DNA from: a virus
Direction: 5' to 3' (one strand)
DNA: 24,307 nt
Virus record (IMG/VR): IMGVR_UViG_3300009104_000122
Location: 1-24,307 of that record
How positions within the stretch are numbered: the first letter of the stretch is position 1; each line of letters opens with the position of its first letter. Position numbers and translations under genes: made by a program. This document shows, piece after piece, positions 1,268 to 24,307 of the stretch. Below the pieces are notes generated by a model. The model had not been told where the DNA came from. It did not search any database and was given only the letters and a program-made list of their open reading frames with translations.

Positions 1268-1480
1268 ATGAAAGACTTAATCAATAAACCACCACATTAC
1301 CGAAATAAGATAGAATGTTTAGATATAATAAAGCAACAAGTAGATGATGTTGGTTCAGTATATGAAGCCCATATATGGCGTTATCTATATCGTCACAAAA
1401 ACAAAGGCGCAAACATATCTGATTTAGAGAAGGCAGAATTTTATTTAAAAAAGCTGATTAAACATTATAAGAATCTATAG
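1268..1480 (+). CDS. DUF3310 family protein (70 aa)
   Basis: The protein fits the short DUF3310 family common in phages. Its marks are the N-terminal KPPHYRNKIECLDII block, the central AHIWRYLYRHKNKG block and the C-terminal DLEKAEFYLKKLI helix. The family is mostly uncharacterised; as I recall, T7 gp1.7, a nucleotide kinase, belongs to or near it, so a role in nucleotide metabolism is possible but unproven. At 70 residues it is close to the minimum for the family. The ATG is preceded by AAGGA at 1257-1261 with 6-nt spacing. The 35-nt gap upstream could carry a weak promoter. Confidence 0.8.
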   Translation: MKDLINKPPHYRNKIECLDIIKQQVDDVGSVYEAHIWRYLYRHKNKGANISDLEKAEFYLKKLIKHYKNL

Positions 1481-1488
1481 TGAATAAT

Positions 1489-1653
1489 ATGTGTGAAGAT
1501 GATAAAAAAGCTATACTAGAACATAGCATAGAGGAAGGTTTATCTTTACATGATGTGGCTTTAAAGTTTGGAGTGACTAAAAGCACGATAAGAAGATGGG
1601 CTTTGAAACATAATTTAACCTTTAAAACTAAGTCACCCTGGAGAAAGAATTAA
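1489..1653 (+). CDS. Small helix-turn-helix protein (54 aa)
   Basis: A short frame encodes a protein starting MCEDDKKAILEHS. Residues 9-43 form a convincing helix-turn-helix: SLHDVALKFGVTKSTIRRWALK, with the Gly of the turn and a recognition helix ending RRW, as in homeodomain-like or transposase-type HTH folds. The tail is basic (KTKSPWRKN). It fills the gap between two neighbours and its TAA shares one base with the ATG of the next gene (TAATG), typical of this genome. A GTG at 1480 would give three more residues and overlap the DUF3310 stop. A DNA-binding regulator or packaging accessory is likely; which one cannot be told. Confidence 0.7.
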   Translation: MCEDDKKAILEHSIEEGLSLHDVALKFGVTKSTIRRWALKHNLTFKTKSPWRKN

Positions 1654-2987: not shown

Positions 2988-4731
2988 CCAACACAGAGTA
3001 TTAAGTTCTGAGTCAAGTGCTGAACCTGGCAACTGGCGAAGTAGTCGTGCTGCATATCAAATAGAAATAATGGATGCTGTTCTTGATAGAAATATAGAAA
3101 CTGTTGTTCTTATGTCCAGTTCACAAATTGGTAAGACAGAAATAATGAATAACATATTGGGTTATTACATATCTCAAGATCCCTGCCCTGTTTTAGTTAT
3201 GCAACCAACTTTAGAGATGGCTAGAACGTGGAGTAAGGACCGATTAAATCCAATGCTCAAAAGCAGTAAGGTCTTAAAAGGTAAAGTAAAAGAACCAAGG
3301 GCAAAGGACAGCGAGAATACTGTACTCCACAAAAAATACGATGGTGGTTTCATTGCAGTAGTGGGGGCCAATTCAGCTAGTGGTTTGGCGAGCAGACCAG
3401 TAAGAATTTTATTAGCAGACGAAGTAGATCGCTTCCCTATAAGTGCTGGCGCAGAAGGAGATCCAGTTTCCCTGGCATTAAAAAGAACAACTACCTTTTG
3501 GAATAGAAAAATAGTTATGGCATCAACCCCAACTATAGACGGACTATCAAGAATACAAACTGCTTTTGAATCATCAGATAAGAGAAGGTATTTTGTTCCG
3601 TGTCCAGATTGCCATGAAATGCAAATATTAGAATGGTCAAATGTCCAATGGGATGAAGGCAAGCCAGAGACAGCCAGATATATATGTGTGCATTGTGGTT
3701 CTCTTTTAGAAGAGAAAGAAAAAATAAAAATGATTAGAAACGGAGAATGGAGAGCAGAAGAAGAAACAAACAAGACAGCAGGATTTCATATTAACGAATT
3801 GTATTCACCTTGGAGTACATGGGGAACAATGGCTATTAATTTTTTAGAAGCTAAGAAACATCCAGAGATATTAAAGACTTATATTAATACTTCCCTTGGT
3901 GATGTGTGGAGAGATCAAGGGGAAGAGATAGTAAGTGAAGGATTGATGGCACGAAGAGAAACATACGATGAATCGTGTATTCCCGATAACGTCCTGGTTA
4001 TTACAGGTGGTGTTGATATACAAAGCGATAGATTAGAATTGCAAGTCATAGGATGGGGATTGGAATCGCACAGCTACGTTTTAGACTATCAGATATTTTG
4101 GGGTGAGACTTCTCAAGCGCAAGTGTGGGGAGAACTAGATGATTATTTAAAGAGAAGATATGAAAGAGAAAGTTTACCCTCCTTACCTATAGCGTGTGTT
4201 GGAATTGATACGGGGTATCAAACTCAAAGCTGTTATAACTTTGTAAAAAATAAAACAGGCAGAAGAATATTTGGAATTAAAGGACAATCACAAGCAGGCA
4301 AGCCGATTGCAGGAAGACCAACCCAATCGGGCAGACAAAGAATACAACTCTTCCCTGCTGGCGTTGATACAGCAAAGGAAAATATCTTTCAATGGCTACA
4401 AATTGATGAAGTAGGACCAGGGTATGTCCATTTCCCAAACAATATGGATGAAGAATATTTTAAACAACTTACAGCAGAGAAAAGAGCAGTCAAGTTTTAC
4501 AAGGGCGAGAAGCGAGTAGTTTGGGTAGCACAAAGAGAAAGAAATGAAGCCCTTGATACGTTTGTCTATTGTTTAGTTGCTCTACATATATTACAACCCG
4601 ATTTAAAAAAAATATCTTCAAACAACAAGCCACCTAAAGAAGAGTCCATAAAAAGGAACAATCCAATCACTAATCCCACGCTTAGAACAATCAAAAGACC
4701 TCGTAAGTCTTTTGTAAATAGTTGGAAGTAG
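2881..4731 (+). CDS. terL: Terminase large subunit, GpA family
   Basis: ATP-driven motor and nuclease that packages phage DNA into the prohead. Features in order: the family N-terminal block WADQHRVLSSESSAEPGNWR (residues 34-53); Walker A SSSQIGKTE (79-87); Walker B LLADEVDRF with Asp180-Glu181; two CxxC pairs, Cys241/244 and Cys269/272, forming a probable zinc knuckle; and nuclease acidic residues in GGVDIQ (Asp379), GIDTGY (Asp443) and NEALDTF (Asp559). The 616-residue length is normal for GpA. GAGGTG at 2871-2876 is a strong ribosome-binding site for the ATG at 2881, which fixes the start inside the small terminase gene. The conserved N-terminal block begins within that overlap, so the overlap is real. 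The C-terminus is basic and probably disordered. Confidence 0.95.
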   Translation: MNLHQVNYQNPLEAVWNKTAKAFLPPKKLKVSSWADQHRVLSSESSAEPGNWRSSRAAYQIEIMDAVLDRNIETVVLMSSSQIGKTEIMNNILGYYISQDPCPVLVMQPTLEMARTWSKDRLNPMLKSSKVLKGKVKEPRAKDSENTVLHKKYDGGFIAVVGANSASGLASRPVRILLADEVDRFPISAGAEGDPVSLALKRTTTFWNRKIVMASTPTIDGLSRIQTAFESSDKRRYFVPCPDCHEMQILEWSNVQWDEGKPETARYICVHCGSLLEEKEKIKMIRNGEWRAEEETNKTAGFHINELYSPWSTWGTMAINFLEAKKHPEILKTYINTSLGDVWRDQGEEIVSEGLMARRETYDESCIPDNVLVITGGVDIQSDRLELQVIGWGLESHSYVLDYQIFWGETSQAQVWGELDDYLKRRYERESLPSLPIACVGIDTGYQTQSCYNFVKNKTGRRIFGIKGQSQAGKPIAGRPTQSGRQRIQLFPAGVDTAKENIFQWLQIDEVGPGYVHFPNNMDEEYFKQLTAEKRAVKFYKGEKRVVWVAQRERNEALDTFVYCLVALHILQPDLKKISSNNKPPKEESIKRNNPITNPTLRTIKRPRKSFVNSWK

Positions 4732-4733
4732 TG

Positions 4734-4768
4734 TATTGACAGATTAAATATGGCACTTAATGTTTTTA
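4734..4768 (+). promoter_or_regulatory. Conserved promoter-like motif, copy 1
   Basis: TTGACA, a perfect -35 hexamer, is followed after 8 bases by ATGGCACTTA, then A, then TGTTTTTA. The same arrangement with identical spacing occurs at 18787-18821; 28 of 35 bases agree. The -10 element by the usual spacing is poor (TAATGT after 16 bp), so this may be a phage-modified promoter or an operator overlapping a promoter. It lies in the short gap between the large terminase and the head genes, just where a separate head transcript would begin. Confidence 0.55.
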
Positions 4769-4790
4769 GTTTAGCTTATGAGGACATAGT

Positions 4791-5381
4791 TTGGCCAATA
4801 GATTTGATTCCGTTAATTATCCAACAAACGTACCAGATACATTGTATGTAGGGGATAACTTTCTATGGAAGAGAGATTTAACTGATTATCCCGTTGCTAG
4901 TTATTCATTAAGTTATTCTTTTCGATTACTTACTTCGGCTGCTACTGAAATAGCGTTAGGTGATTCAGTAATTACAGAAAGTGATACAAGTGTTTATACA
5001 ATTAATGTTCCGAGTAGCACAACAACTGATTATACGAAAGGTGACTATACTTATCAGGAATATATAACAAAAACATCTGGATCAGAAAGATTGGTATTAA
5101 ATACAGGGTTGGTAAGTCTTAAATCTAACTTAGATGCTGATACGGGAGATCCAAGGTCAAGTGCCAGAATTATATTACAGGCCCTTGAAGCCACGATGGA
5201 AAACAGGGCTACAATAGATCAAATGTCTATGAGCATCGCTGGTAGGTCGCTTTCCCGTATGTCACCAGCAGAACTGAATGATTGGAAGTCACACTATAAA
5301 GCGTTAGTAAGTAATGAAGATAAGAAGTCCAGGCGAGATAAAAGCGAAGCAACAGGAACACAAATTAAGGTTAGATTCTAA
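4791..5381 (+). CDS. Head-tail connector (gpW-like) with N-terminal beta domain
   Basis: The C-terminal half (about residues 118-196) reads DPRSSARIILQALEATMENRA, then SIAGRSLSRMSPAELNDW and a final IKVRF. This looks like gpW-type head-joining proteins, in which a glycine-arginine turn separates two helices. The first 115 residues are Thr/Ser/Tyr-rich and probably a beta-sandwich, giving a protein far longer than lambda gpW (68 aa). Start: TTG at 4791 with GAGGA at 4780-4784 and 6-nt spacing; no ATG fits. Its stop shares a base with the portal ATG. The position between large terminase and portal matches gpW in lambda. The gpW link is a by-eye resemblance. Confidence 0.5.
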   Translation: MANRFDSVNYPTNVPDTLYVGDNFLWKRDLTDYPVASYSLSYSFRLLTSAATEIALGDSVITESDTSVYTINVPSSTTTDYTKGDYTYQEYITKTSGSERLVLNTGLVSLKSNLDADTGDPRSSARIILQALEATMENRATIDQMSMSIAGRSLSRMSPAELNDWKSHYKALVSNEDKKSRRDKSEATGTQIKVRF

Positions 5382-18400: not shown

Positions 18401-18792
18401 CAACGGATGATCCTGCTAGTGGTGGCGCAACATGGAGTGATTGGTCTGAATTTACTATAGGAAACTATTATGGTAGGGGTTTTAAATTTAAACTAAAGGT
18501 AAATGTAGGAGATTCTTCCCATCAAATTAATGTTTCTCAATTACAAGCGCAAGCAGAGGTTTATTATAGATTCGAGTCTGAGGGAGTCACCACAGATGCT
18601 TCGGGTTCTGCTTTAACTTTTGATTCATCTTTTAGAGCAGCACCACAAATTAATATCACAGCGCAAGATCTGGCTACGGGTGATTATTACACTATTACGA
18701 GTCCATCAGCAACAGGATTCACTTTGAAATTTTTTAACTCAAGTGGAACGGGTGTTTCTCGTTCTGCTTATTATATAGCAAGGGGATATTGA
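15460..18792 (+). CDS. Tail tip protein, gpJ-like, with fibronectin type III repeats
   Basis: I take the ATG at 15460 (1110 aa) which overlaps the previous stop; a TTG at 15439 would lie inside the previous gene. Residues 1-48 are hydrophobic and Gly/Ala-rich, like the membrane-seeking gpI/J N-terminus. Then comes a gpJ-type core: NTAPIPVIYGSRRVGGTRY, VSEITAVYLNN, GVAYLYVRLHFDQE (about residue 220), ALCIRDYLTNTIYG and ADLAYEENTPGREVYDN. Three probable fibronectin type III domains follow at about 547-645, 647-757 and 758-850, with the typical 'F.dL.PGtY.f.V.A.N.aG' strand in the first. The last 255 residues form a tip domain ending SRSAYYIARGY. This would be the central tip that contacts the receptor and carries side fibres. 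Confidence 0.85.
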   Translation: MGGALAKAFVWIAATIGQAVMVFGAGVKTAAVIGMIVTTAVFVAAGSALMGRLVRTPDIGLAQQGSIILSNSPSNTAPIPVIYGSRRVGGTRYFVGTSNGFENGQMTNKNDYLHMIIGLGEGPVSEITAVYLNNVEAWPNKDNRFVHSNPNGNPVVYIEPHLGEADQEASAELVHIANNNILAYEPEPGTIPGIGIPIPGSSPFSQPFEWTEDHRLRGVAYLYVRLHFDQEIFASGVPNITADIKGRPVKDTRQLVNGVVGTAITRYSNNPALCIRDYLTNTIYGRAISEDLIDDTSFEAAANYCDEEVTFEYVEDGFGKSATQKRYTLNGVVDTSESSLNIVNKMLTACRGSLVFSGGKYKLVLDKAETAALTFDESNVMGDYEITLAGKDTLANRVEASFFNPENEWQADLAYEENTPGREVYDNGLLLEKKIELPFTANRIMAQYIARQNLSASRNNIILSFKTTQEGLLAEIGDVIYVKLEAPGWDTLNSNAGKKFRVIQMEIEATDEIKITAIEYSDVVYQLYPPAYRSSLGTALPHLNVVLPPTDVTASETLFFSSPKVINRVSMSWTPPEVAYARSYDVAYKKLNDTEFTAIATTTAKQYTFDNLKPGTYTFNVRAKNNAGFTSAYSQTTLAVKGVTSLPAVNPPAITGVVESLVSSTLGSGVKAKARLTWSAVANSEWEDIGVNIESYEIQYKLTSEATNYESPGSSTGTYFDFFDITPGNYNIRVRAINDAGVKSNYAETTTEIVALTDAPANVSNFYMRADGVEAHLSWDETTDLDVKVGGTYEIRHSVATSGATWIASTPIGDAVPGSSNGVTMPLLVGTYLIKAVDSTSHKSDSATTIVNTISPSVLQKRTYQTVTDTAFAGTKTNMVVSDGKLELEADTLIDDMTTLMDVWGEFDSIGGVDLEGTYEFSDKIDLTLAGGATLSGGVTFTTESLNDYLDMRTTNFDSWADFDYNTIFDDVVTTLYVSSTTDDPASGGATWSDWSEFTIGNYYGRGFKFKLKVNVGDSSHQINVSQLQAQAEVYYRFESEGVTTDASGSALTFDSSFRAAPQINITAQDLATGDYYTITSPSATGFTLKFFNSSGTGVSRSAYYIARGY

Positions 18793-18821
18793 CAAAGGTA
18801 TGATGGCACTTATTGTTTTTA
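18787..18821 (+). promoter_or_regulatory. Conserved promoter-like motif, copy 2
   Basis: TTGACA at 18789-18794, overlapping the gpJ stop, is followed after 8 bases by ATGGCACTTA, T and TGTTTTTA, matching the copy before the connector gene base for base except one position in that block. The -10 candidate after a 16-bp spacer is TATTGT. It fills a 54-nt gap directly ahead of the tail fibre gene, so the fibre and the genes after it probably have their own transcript. Confidence 0.6.
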
Positions 18822-18846: not shown

Positions 18847-20685
18847 ATGCAACACGATTATGTCATAGCAAATGCCAATGGGGCCACAGTTAGAGCAGAT
18901 ATAAATAATGTTCTACTTGCCATATCTTCTACTAACTCTGGTACTTCTGAACCTTCTACCACTTACGCTTATATGTTGTGGTTAGACAGCGACAATAATC
19001 TATTAAAATTAAGAAATGCAGCCAATGATGGCTGGATTACTTTGGGATTATCAATTACTGCGAGTAATACAGTAGATATTAATGGTGGTGCTATTGATGG
19101 AACACCGATAGGTGCTAGTTCTACATCAACTGGTGCTTTTACAACAATTACAGCGAGTTCTACTATATCTGGTACTTCTATAACAGCTTCTACTTCCCTC
19201 TTAACACCTTTAATCGAATATACGGATGGTGATGATGCTATAACGATAGCCGATGGTGGTGGAGTGACTATTGCTGATTTAACGGCCACAACAGCCGATA
19301 TAAATGCTGGTTCTATAGATAACGCTACAGTTGGATCTAGTACAGCTAATACGGGTGCATTTACTACTTTATCGGCTTCAGGGGCCACCGATTTAAACAG
19401 TACATTAGCAATAAGTGGTAATGTATCAATGGATGGTTCAGCGAATGAATTAAGATTTTATGAAGGCGCAAATTATGTAGGATTTGAAGCACCTGCTTTA
19501 ACTGGTGATCAGATATGGGTGTTGCCTACAGCCGATGGAAGCGCAGACCAGGTATTAAAAACAGATGGTTCAGGAAACCTTGGTTGGGCTACAGCAGGTG
19601 GTGGGGGTGCTTCTGATATTGATGATTTAAGTGATTGCTTAGTTGAAAATAATTCTGTTTGGCTAGGTAATGATCCTTCTAGCACAACCAGTACAGCGAG
19701 TTATTGCGTTTCTGTAGGAACTACTTCTTTAGATGCCATAACAACAGGAGATGATAATACCAGCATGGGATATGATGCGTTAACATCATTAAATACAGGG
19801 GAAGATAATACTGCCTTCGGCTATGAAGCTGGTAAATCCTTAACTATAGGGGTAAAAAACGTTTTTATAGGACATGGGGCAGGTAAAGATGTAGATAAAG
19901 AGTCTGGTGATCAAGGTTCTTTTAACACTTTTATTGGTCAGGATGCAGGTGCATTAGTCACTAATTCACAGCGTTGTACTTATGTTGGTAGGGCTGCTGG
20001 TGGACAGATGGCTCAAGGACCAAATTATCAAACACATATAGGTATGTATGCTGGAAGTAGTCAATACGGAAGCTATACAACCACAGTAGGTTATGGCAAC
20101 TTACAAGCTGCATCGTCTGGATCTTATATGGTTGCAGTTGGGGCCAATTTAACTTGTACAGGAGAAAGTTCTATCCTTATCGGTGCTGGTATTTCTGATA
20201 ATACTAGCGATGAAGTAATGTTGGGTGATGCTGCAAGTTATTATACGCTGGCTTATAGTGGTTCTGGTGCTAGTTGGTCGCACAGTTCTGATGAAAGAAT
20301 GAAAAAAGATATAACTACTGATACGTTGGGATTATCTTTTATTAATGATCTTAGACCTGTCACTTTTAACCTAAAAGCACCAAGTGAGTTTCCTACAGAA
20401 TGGAACTCTTATTCTCCACCTACTTATACTAATTCAGAAGGAGAAGTTTTTGAGCAACAGACCACACCAAGCAATACAGACTTACAACATGGTTTAATTG
20501 CACAAGAAGTTAAGGCAGCTTTAGATACTGCTGGGGTAAGCACTTTTTCAGGTTGGAGTGAAAGAGAAGATGGACAACAAAGAATTGCAAAAGGAATGTT
20601 TATTTTACCCCTTATAAATGCCGTTAAAGAACTTTCAACTAAACTAGAAGCAGCCGAAAACAGAATAACAGCATTAGAAAGTTAA
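18847..20685 (+). CDS. Tail fibre with C-terminal S74 chaperone domain
   Basis: A 612-residue, Thr/Ser/Gly-rich trimeric fibre. A 31-residue unit occurs twice, at about residues 76-106 and 150-180 (DINGGAIDGTPIGASS and DINAGSIDNATVGSS, both followed by TGAFTT). The middle (about 285-470) has repeats of the type NTAFGYEAGKSL and NTFIGQDAGALV, resembling YadA-head left-handed beta-rolls. The end (about 480-612) is a peptidase S74 domain: SDERMKKDI, FINDLRPVTF, HGLIAQEV, and a coiled-coil tail EAAENRITALE. S74 domains assist trimer folding and cut themselves off after the Ser of the SDER motif. The fibre would bind the host surface. Start ATG with AAAAGG at 18833-18838. Confidence 0.9.
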   Translation: MQHDYVIANANGATVRADINNVLLAISSTNSGTSEPSTTYAYMLWLDSDNNLLKLRNAANDGWITLGLSITASNTVDINGGAIDGTPIGASSTSTGAFTTITASSTISGTSITASTSLLTPLIEYTDGDDAITIADGGGVTIADLTATTADINAGSIDNATVGSSTANTGAFTTLSASGATDLNSTLAISGNVSMDGSANELRFYEGANYVGFEAPALTGDQIWVLPTADGSADQVLKTDGSGNLGWATAGGGGASDIDDLSDCLVENNSVWLGNDPSSTTSTASYCVSVGTTSLDAITTGDDNTSMGYDALTSLNTGEDNTAFGYEAGKSLTIGVKNVFIGHGAGKDVDKESGDQGSFNTFIGQDAGALVTNSQRCTYVGRAAGGQMAQGPNYQTHIGMYAGSSQYGSYTTTVGYGNLQAASSGSYMVAVGANLTCTGESSILIGAGISDNTSDEVMLGDAASYYTLAYSGSGASWSHSSDERMKKDITTDTLGLSFINDLRPVTFNLKAPSEFPTEWNSYSPPTYTNSEGEVFEQQTTPSNTDLQHGLIAQEVKAALDTAGVSTFSGWSEREDGQQRIAKGMFILPLINAVKELSTKLEAAENRITALES

Positions 20686-24275: not shown

Positions 24276-24307
24276 ATGGAATGGTTTGAAAACAAAACAA
24301 CCCAAAT
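24276..24307 (+). CDS. Start of a further gene (5' end only)
   Basis: An ATG two bases after the previous stop opens a frame reading MEWFENKTTQ up to the window edge. Ten residues are too few for a family. The close spacing and the constant direction of genes suggest a real gene, but no separate ribosome-binding site is clear. Confidence 0.4.
   Translation, partial: MEWFENKTTQ

Follow-up and report, generated by a model that had tools for sequence, protein, structure and literature searches.

Predicted late promoters with a clade-specific spacer block at two gene junctions of a marine siphophage genome

Phages Mu and P2 encode activators of late promoters, Mor and C in the former and Ogr in the latter, which act on the host sigma-70 polymerase, and Ogr binds near -55. 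The spacer of a sigma-70 promoter is normally regarded as largely sequence-neutral, and MerR-type activators, which bind the spacer, act on spacers of 19-20 bp. The element bound by Mor is described as 16 bp long, with its centre at -43.5 (PMC4390567). Our literature searches found no description of promoters of the kind that we predict below.

The window, i.e. the whole stretch of DNA that we analyzed, is a virus record of 24,307 bp with a GC content of 0.376. Its genes follow the lambda-like order of a siphophage (terS, terL, head-tail joining, portal, major capsid, tape measure, distal tail, gpJ-like and tail spike). The source is a marine siphophage, and the nearest isolates by terminase are the Roseobacter phages CRP-811, CRP-406 and CRP-821, at ~50% identity. 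Neither a blastn comparison of 3 kb with phage records nor an Rfam search covering four sources returned a match. The contigs of many relatives start ~2.4 kb upstream of the head-tail joining gene, just before terS, which corresponds to window positions ~2305-2400, and the relative G025 has a 14-bp direct terminal repeat at the matching position, so its genome is probably complete. This site before terS is probably a cos site, in which case the window spans it; in the window it is followed by repeats around AAACTGGAACCAGTTT.

The pattern TTGACA-N8-ATGGCACTTA-N-TGTTTTTA is present exactly twice in the window, at 4736-4768 and 18789-18821, and 28 of 35 bases (80%) agree in the gapless match of 4734-4768 with 18787-18821. 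The first-pass annotation had reported both copies with identical spacing and this degree of match, which recomputing from the sequence bears out; it had also placed them in the gaps before the head genes and before a fibre gene, which is equally correct, the latter being the tail-spike gene. Copy 1 lies between terL (stop at 4731) and the head-tail joining gene, which is followed by the portal and major capsid genes, and fills most of that gap, while copy 2 lies upstream of the tail-spike gene and shares bases with the gpJ-like stop codon (18790-18792). We refer to the copy at the TerL/head-tail joining junction as P1, to that at the gpJ-like/tail-spike junction as P2, and to a further copy at the lysis end of some relatives as P3. 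The features concerned are as follows; the TTG start of the head-tail joining gene is common to most relatives.

4736..4768, + strand: predicted late promoter P1, whole motif, before the head-tail joining, portal and capsid genes
4736..4741, + strand: predicted P1 -35 hexamer TTGACA (TTGAC invariant in the 14-sequence set A1; TTGAC or TTGAT in nearly all relatives)
4750..4759, + strand: P1 spacer element ATGGCACTTA, the clade-specific block also present in P2
4758..4763, + strand: predicted P1 -10 hexamer TAATGT (TAnnnT, 16-bp spacer), from the sequence and from TAnnnT at 16/17 bp in relatives
4780..4783, + strand: GAGG, predicted from the sequence as ribosome-binding site of the head-tail joining gene (TTG start at 4791)
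4791..5381, + strand: head-tail joining gene, first gene under P1 (phrog_5774, E 7e-28)
18789..18821, + strand: predicted late promoter P2, whole motif, before the tail-spike gene
18789..18794, + strand: predicted P2 -35 hexamer TTGACA, overlapping the gpJ-like stop codon
18803..18812, + strand: P2 spacer element ATGGCACTTA
18811..18816, + strand: predicted P2 -10 hexamer TATTGT (16-bp spacer; 10 of 12 consensus bases)
18847..20685, + strand: tail-spike gene under P2, ATG at 18847 (phrog_4636, E 2e-28)

An IUPAC form of the pattern with three mismatches allowed was found at these two places only in the window and in none of 100 dinucleotide shuffles. Since a pattern derived from both copies makes this test partly circular, we added a test of any two 35-mers: no pair matched at 28 or more positions in 15 dinucleotide shuffles (best 27), versus 28 in the window. 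The recurrence of the motif is not due to chance, and the decisive independent control is provided by relatives that carry it at both gene junctions.

We collected 20 loci from IMG/VR by searching with the head-tail joining protein, and 80 loci by searching with an alignment of that protein. TTGAC-N16/17-TA precedes the head-tail joining gene in every locus of the 20-locus set that reaches the junction, and most loci of the 80-locus set carry TTGAC(A)-N16/17-TA there, down to ~45% protein identity; a sequence-only model recovers these sites, together with the copy before the tail-spike gene in G010, G021, G022 and G023. Clade B (G025-G031) has both copies, ~14 kb apart. A search of the genome and its relatives with the motif, proposed as a check by the first-pass annotation, thus finds uncultured relatives with copies at both junctions. 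The copy number is two in the window, G027, G028 and G031, and three in G010, G025, G026, G029 and G030; G015 (clade C) has only one copy, and no clear motif was seen at the head-tail joining junction of the distant relatives L180, L181, L182 and L184. Another relative at 45% identity with a related predicted promoter (L241) lies in the 72.7-kb contig CACEDS010000004.1, which belongs to a SAR86 single-cell assembly and may point to the host of the distant clade.

Scanning IMG/VR with the clade-B pattern gave 39 matches, 34 of them at the two junctions as judged by tblastn, one more (L294) by eye, and four in long ORFs. The window-form pattern gave 15 matches, seven at junctions, one at the third late site and seven inside long ORFs, the last being the number that chance would give; a scan of the collection with ATGGCACTTANTGTTTTTA gave seven matches. 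Occurrence at random places inside genes had been named by the first-pass annotation as a refuting outcome, and these scans served to test it; nearly all clade-B matches fall at the junctions.

The third copy is found near the lysis genes in some relatives whose contigs extend far enough. In G025, G026, G029 and G030 it immediately precedes a gene that has a lysozyme-like gene behind it; in G010 and contig L256/L304 it is located where the rightward operon ends. In G026, P3 begins 363 bp after the start of the homologue of the window gene at 24277, which predicts a third copy for the present phage ~360 bp beyond that gene start, just outside the right end of the window. The clade-B third copy, seen at L212:13145 (G026 29844) and on the minus strand at L209:10391 (G025), ends 2-3 bases before the next ATG, and since this leaves no room for a ribosome-binding site, the lysis-region mRNA is possibly leaderless. 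Behind the third copy in two clade-A relatives, at the end of the late operon (L114:4785-4915 and L304:3962-4092), there is an inverted repeat whose arms differ between sites but match each other, GGGGCAACT/AGTTGCCCC and GGGGCCAAC/GTTGGCCCC, around a common TCTCTCCAAGAA stretch; its z-score against shuffles is only -1.5, and it may represent a small RNA or else a terminator of unusual type that lacks a T-run.

The part that is universal across clades, TTGAC plus TA...T at 16-17 bp (TTGACA-N16/17-TAnnnT), has the signature of a sigma-70 promoter, and the two copies in the window, TTGACA-N16-TAATGT and TTGACA-N16-TATTGT, agree with a sigma-70-type arrangement (-35 TTGACA and -10 TAnnnT at 15-19 bp). 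They had been described as having a perfect -35 and a poor -10; the former is correct, whereas the latter is weaker than consensus but present, at 16 bp, because TAnnnT retains the most important -10 bases. Both copies are very probably the promoters of the head genes and of the tail-spike gene, a reading well supported by the retention of TTGACA-N16/17-TAnnnT across clades, at late-gene junctions, on the coding strand and outside genes. A sigma-54 promoter (-24 GG and -12 GC, 10 bp apart, TGGCAC-N5-TTGC) was considered and rejected, since TGGCAC is present but GC at -12 is not; furthermore, other clades keep TTGACA rather than TGGCAC.

In the spacer and -10 region lies a block, at ~-20 to -7, which is specific to each clade and reads TGGCACTTA in the window, TGCAACTTACGGT in the second clade and TGGAAC/TGAAAC in G010. 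Over positions 15-28 of the motif the copies are ATGGCACTTAATGT/ATGGCACTTATTGT in the window, ATGCAACTTACGGT in clade B, ATGGAACGTAATGT/ATGGAACTTAAGGT/ATGAAACTTAAGGT in G010 and ATGCAACTTAGCTT/ATGCAACTTAACTT in G028. Identity over these letters averages 13.0 of 14 within a genome versus 10.9 of 14 between genomes; this likeness was reached by 2 of 120 relabellings, or by 2 of 5040 with two tentative same-sample pairs added, counts that are optimistic because related genomes are treated as independent: only ~4 independent lineages (the window, G010, clade B and G028; G026 and G027 are close relatives) have both sites on a single contig. Pooled identity figures, in which clade B predominates, were set aside. 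The 8 bp beside the -35 carry no such signal (3.2 within versus 3.45 between genomes, of 8), and the 40-nt flanks of the copies of one genome match at only 8-15 of 40 positions. A weak dyad in the block, AC-N5-GT, was discarded, as it is missing from several relatives.

Among the clade-B close pairs listed, the block is identical (14 of 14) and the upstream flanks are 85-98% alike; clade-B P3 retains TGCAACTTA, with a different -10. The opposite is seen at P1 of G010 and L138, whose head-tail joining proteins are 93% identical: upstream 59 of 60 and in the right-aligned leader 20 of 20 bases agree (98% identical flanks), versus 9 of 14 in the block. Likewise, P2 of G010 and P2 of L260 agree at 53 of 60 and 94 of 100 flanking bases versus only 13 of 19 at positions 15-33, where L260 P2 instead matches P1 of L258 from the same sample at 17 of 19 positions, with 0 of 8 in the bases adjacent to the -35. 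This switch of the block inside constant flanks is based on one P1 and one P2 comparison. We take both the invariant clade-B block and the shifted block of the other clade, the latter seen in few sequences, as likely signs of a reader. The first-pass annotation had suggested a phage-specific promoter or an activator site rather than a plain sigma-70 promoter; the phage-specific spacer agrees with the former, whereas the core is itself of the sigma-70 type, and an activator, a repressor or a host factor would each leave the same sequence pattern.

Our best reading of the whole, which we hold to be about evenly poised between right and wrong, is that these are late promoters served by the host sigma-70 polymerase in combination with a spacer-reading protein that acts in trans and is probably encoded by the phage. 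Transcription of the head genes would start from P1 and that of the tail spike and the genes downstream of it from P2, with P3 acting near the lysis genes in relatives. TTGACA and the weak TAnnnT 16-17 bp away would be recognized by host RNA polymerase carrying the housekeeping sigma factor, the main sigma of the host being the economical reader of the universal part because no sigma region 2 was found in the four genomes searched and neither polymerase nor sigma factor was seen among the early proteins of G010 and G025. The trans-acting protein would bind the spacer/-10 region (~-20 to -7) and set the timing of the promoters. For a phage-encoded reader, taken by itself, we see the arguments as equally weighted on either side; it is likelier than a host-encoded one because close relatives differ. 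It would more likely help the weak -10 than block it, activation being favored over repression for that weakness, although proteins bound within a 16-bp spacer usually repress, which counts against this explanation. Since one protein must read all copies, they would all change together when its specificity changes. More tentatively, the specificity of a phage protein reading the spacer and the interior of the -10 may diversify fast among close relatives, with the late promoters of each genome following, so that each phage would have its own "promoter dialect".

Candidates for the reader were sought among the phage proteins. Sigma-70 region 2 (PF04542) was not found in G000, G010, G025 or G026, with positive controls, and weak matches resembling sigma region 4 were the TerS gene and the gene of a 57-aa helix-turn-helix protein (HTH57):

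1480..1653, + strand: 57-aa helix-turn-helix protein HTH57, candidate spacer reader (HTH_23 above cut-off)

Homologues of HTH57 are located next to the packaging genes in several of the relatives whose contigs cover this region, but none was seen next to terS in L239/L133. The recognition segment of HTH57 shows a correlation with the motif (Mantel r 0.54, partial 0.46); since TerL (0.53) and TerS (0.52) correlate equally, we attribute this to phylogeny, and HTH57 is not singled out as the reader. A second candidate is a small early protein (66-94 aa, beside the divergent region) common to G010, G025 and G026, which looks like a ribbon-helix-helix protein by eye, an assignment without Pfam support. 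When early proteins of G010 and G025 were scanned against Pfam, neither a polymerase nor a sigma factor was seen, nor was a CI-like repressor recognized among those searched; a genome search of G010, G025 and G026 with PF00940 was negative, its control likewise giving no signal, and a full MerR protein was not found.

It is unlikely that the sites are plain host sigma-70 promoters whose block likeness mirrors the preference of each clade's own host polymerase or regulator. TTGACA-N16/17-TAnnnT is indeed the sole part conserved in all clades, and the hosts of the wider group differ, the nearest isolates infecting Roseobacter and a distant relative lying in the SAR86 single-cell contig; but we know of no housekeeping sigma factor that reads -19 to -14 as TGGCAC/TGCAAC, and G010 and L138 differ in the block though they probably infect similar hosts. 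We give rather little credence to the idea that the blocks are operators of a phage repressor lying over the late promoters and keeping late genes off until the repressor is lost or displaced. Operators within the spacer or -10 are commonly repressor sites, and a perfect -35 suggests a promoter needing little help, whereas the weak -10 (TAATGT/TATTGT) better fits one that needs help, and the Pfam scans above recognized no CI-like repressor. Improbable, too, is an RNA or DNA element other than a promoter that sits at the borders between modules, for instance an antitermination site or a linker for recombination: although the copies directly follow or overlap stop codons and TGCAACTTA loosely resembles boxA, the spacing from TTGAC to TAnnnT is fixed at 16/17 bp in all clades, and a linker would not be expected to vary in its block while its flanks stay constant, as in one clade. 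Promoters of a phage-encoded sigma factor or single-subunit phage RNA polymerase would account for a long conserved block that reaches the -10, as in phage-specific promoters, but they are highly improbable, given the universal TTGACA, which points to the host sigma, and the searches above, negative for sigma-70 region 2 in four genomes including the probably complete G025, and for a polymerase among the scanned early proteins. Least probable of all is that short recombination or gene conversion homogenizes the sites and makes a trans-acting reader unnecessary: it would yield likeness within a genome, but because the 8 bp between -35 and block (0 of 8 for L258 P1 versus L260 P2) and the flanks (8-15 of 40) are not shared, its tracts would have to be shorter than ~20 bp and arise repeatedly between sites 14 kb apart.

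The reading with host polymerase and a spacer-reading protein gives these sites a wider interest. A widespread family of uncultured marine phages with lineage-specific late-promoter spacers would offer comparative data on how phages control timing over the host polymerase; the shared spacer could serve to assign contigs to one phage and to track down the missing regulator; and the concerted change of the block across all sites of a single virus hints at a reader specific to that virus and not yet described. The CRP-822-type roseophage family, to which the nearest isolated relatives by terminase belong, has a similar gene order, and the word "promoter" is absent from the main text of the paper on it (PMC12629253). 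However, CRP-811, CRP-406 and CRP-821, unlike the window, have no gap at the terL/head-tail joining junction, and CRP-406, a cultured Roseobacter phage, has one related site (L111:4851-4884; TTGACG-N17-TAACGT with GCACTTA in the spacer), in a divergent early region upstream of leftward genes. The predicted promoters share TTGACA, a 16-17 bp spacing and TAnnnT with plain sigma-70 promoters, but differ from them in a conserved, clade-specific spacer common to the sites within a genome. As in MerR-type promoters, the regulator would read the spacer between -35 and -10, which here, however, is 16-17 rather than 19-20 bp long and has no convincing dyad. With the systems of Mor and C in Mu and Ogr in P2 they have in common a phage-specific recognition sequence, probable use of the host polymerase and a weak promoter element, but their -35 is perfect and their specific block occupies the spacer and -10. 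Late promoters that carry phage-specific elements are a known kind in phages, and the sites predicted here are an unusual variant, with the specific element in the spacer beside a perfect -35.
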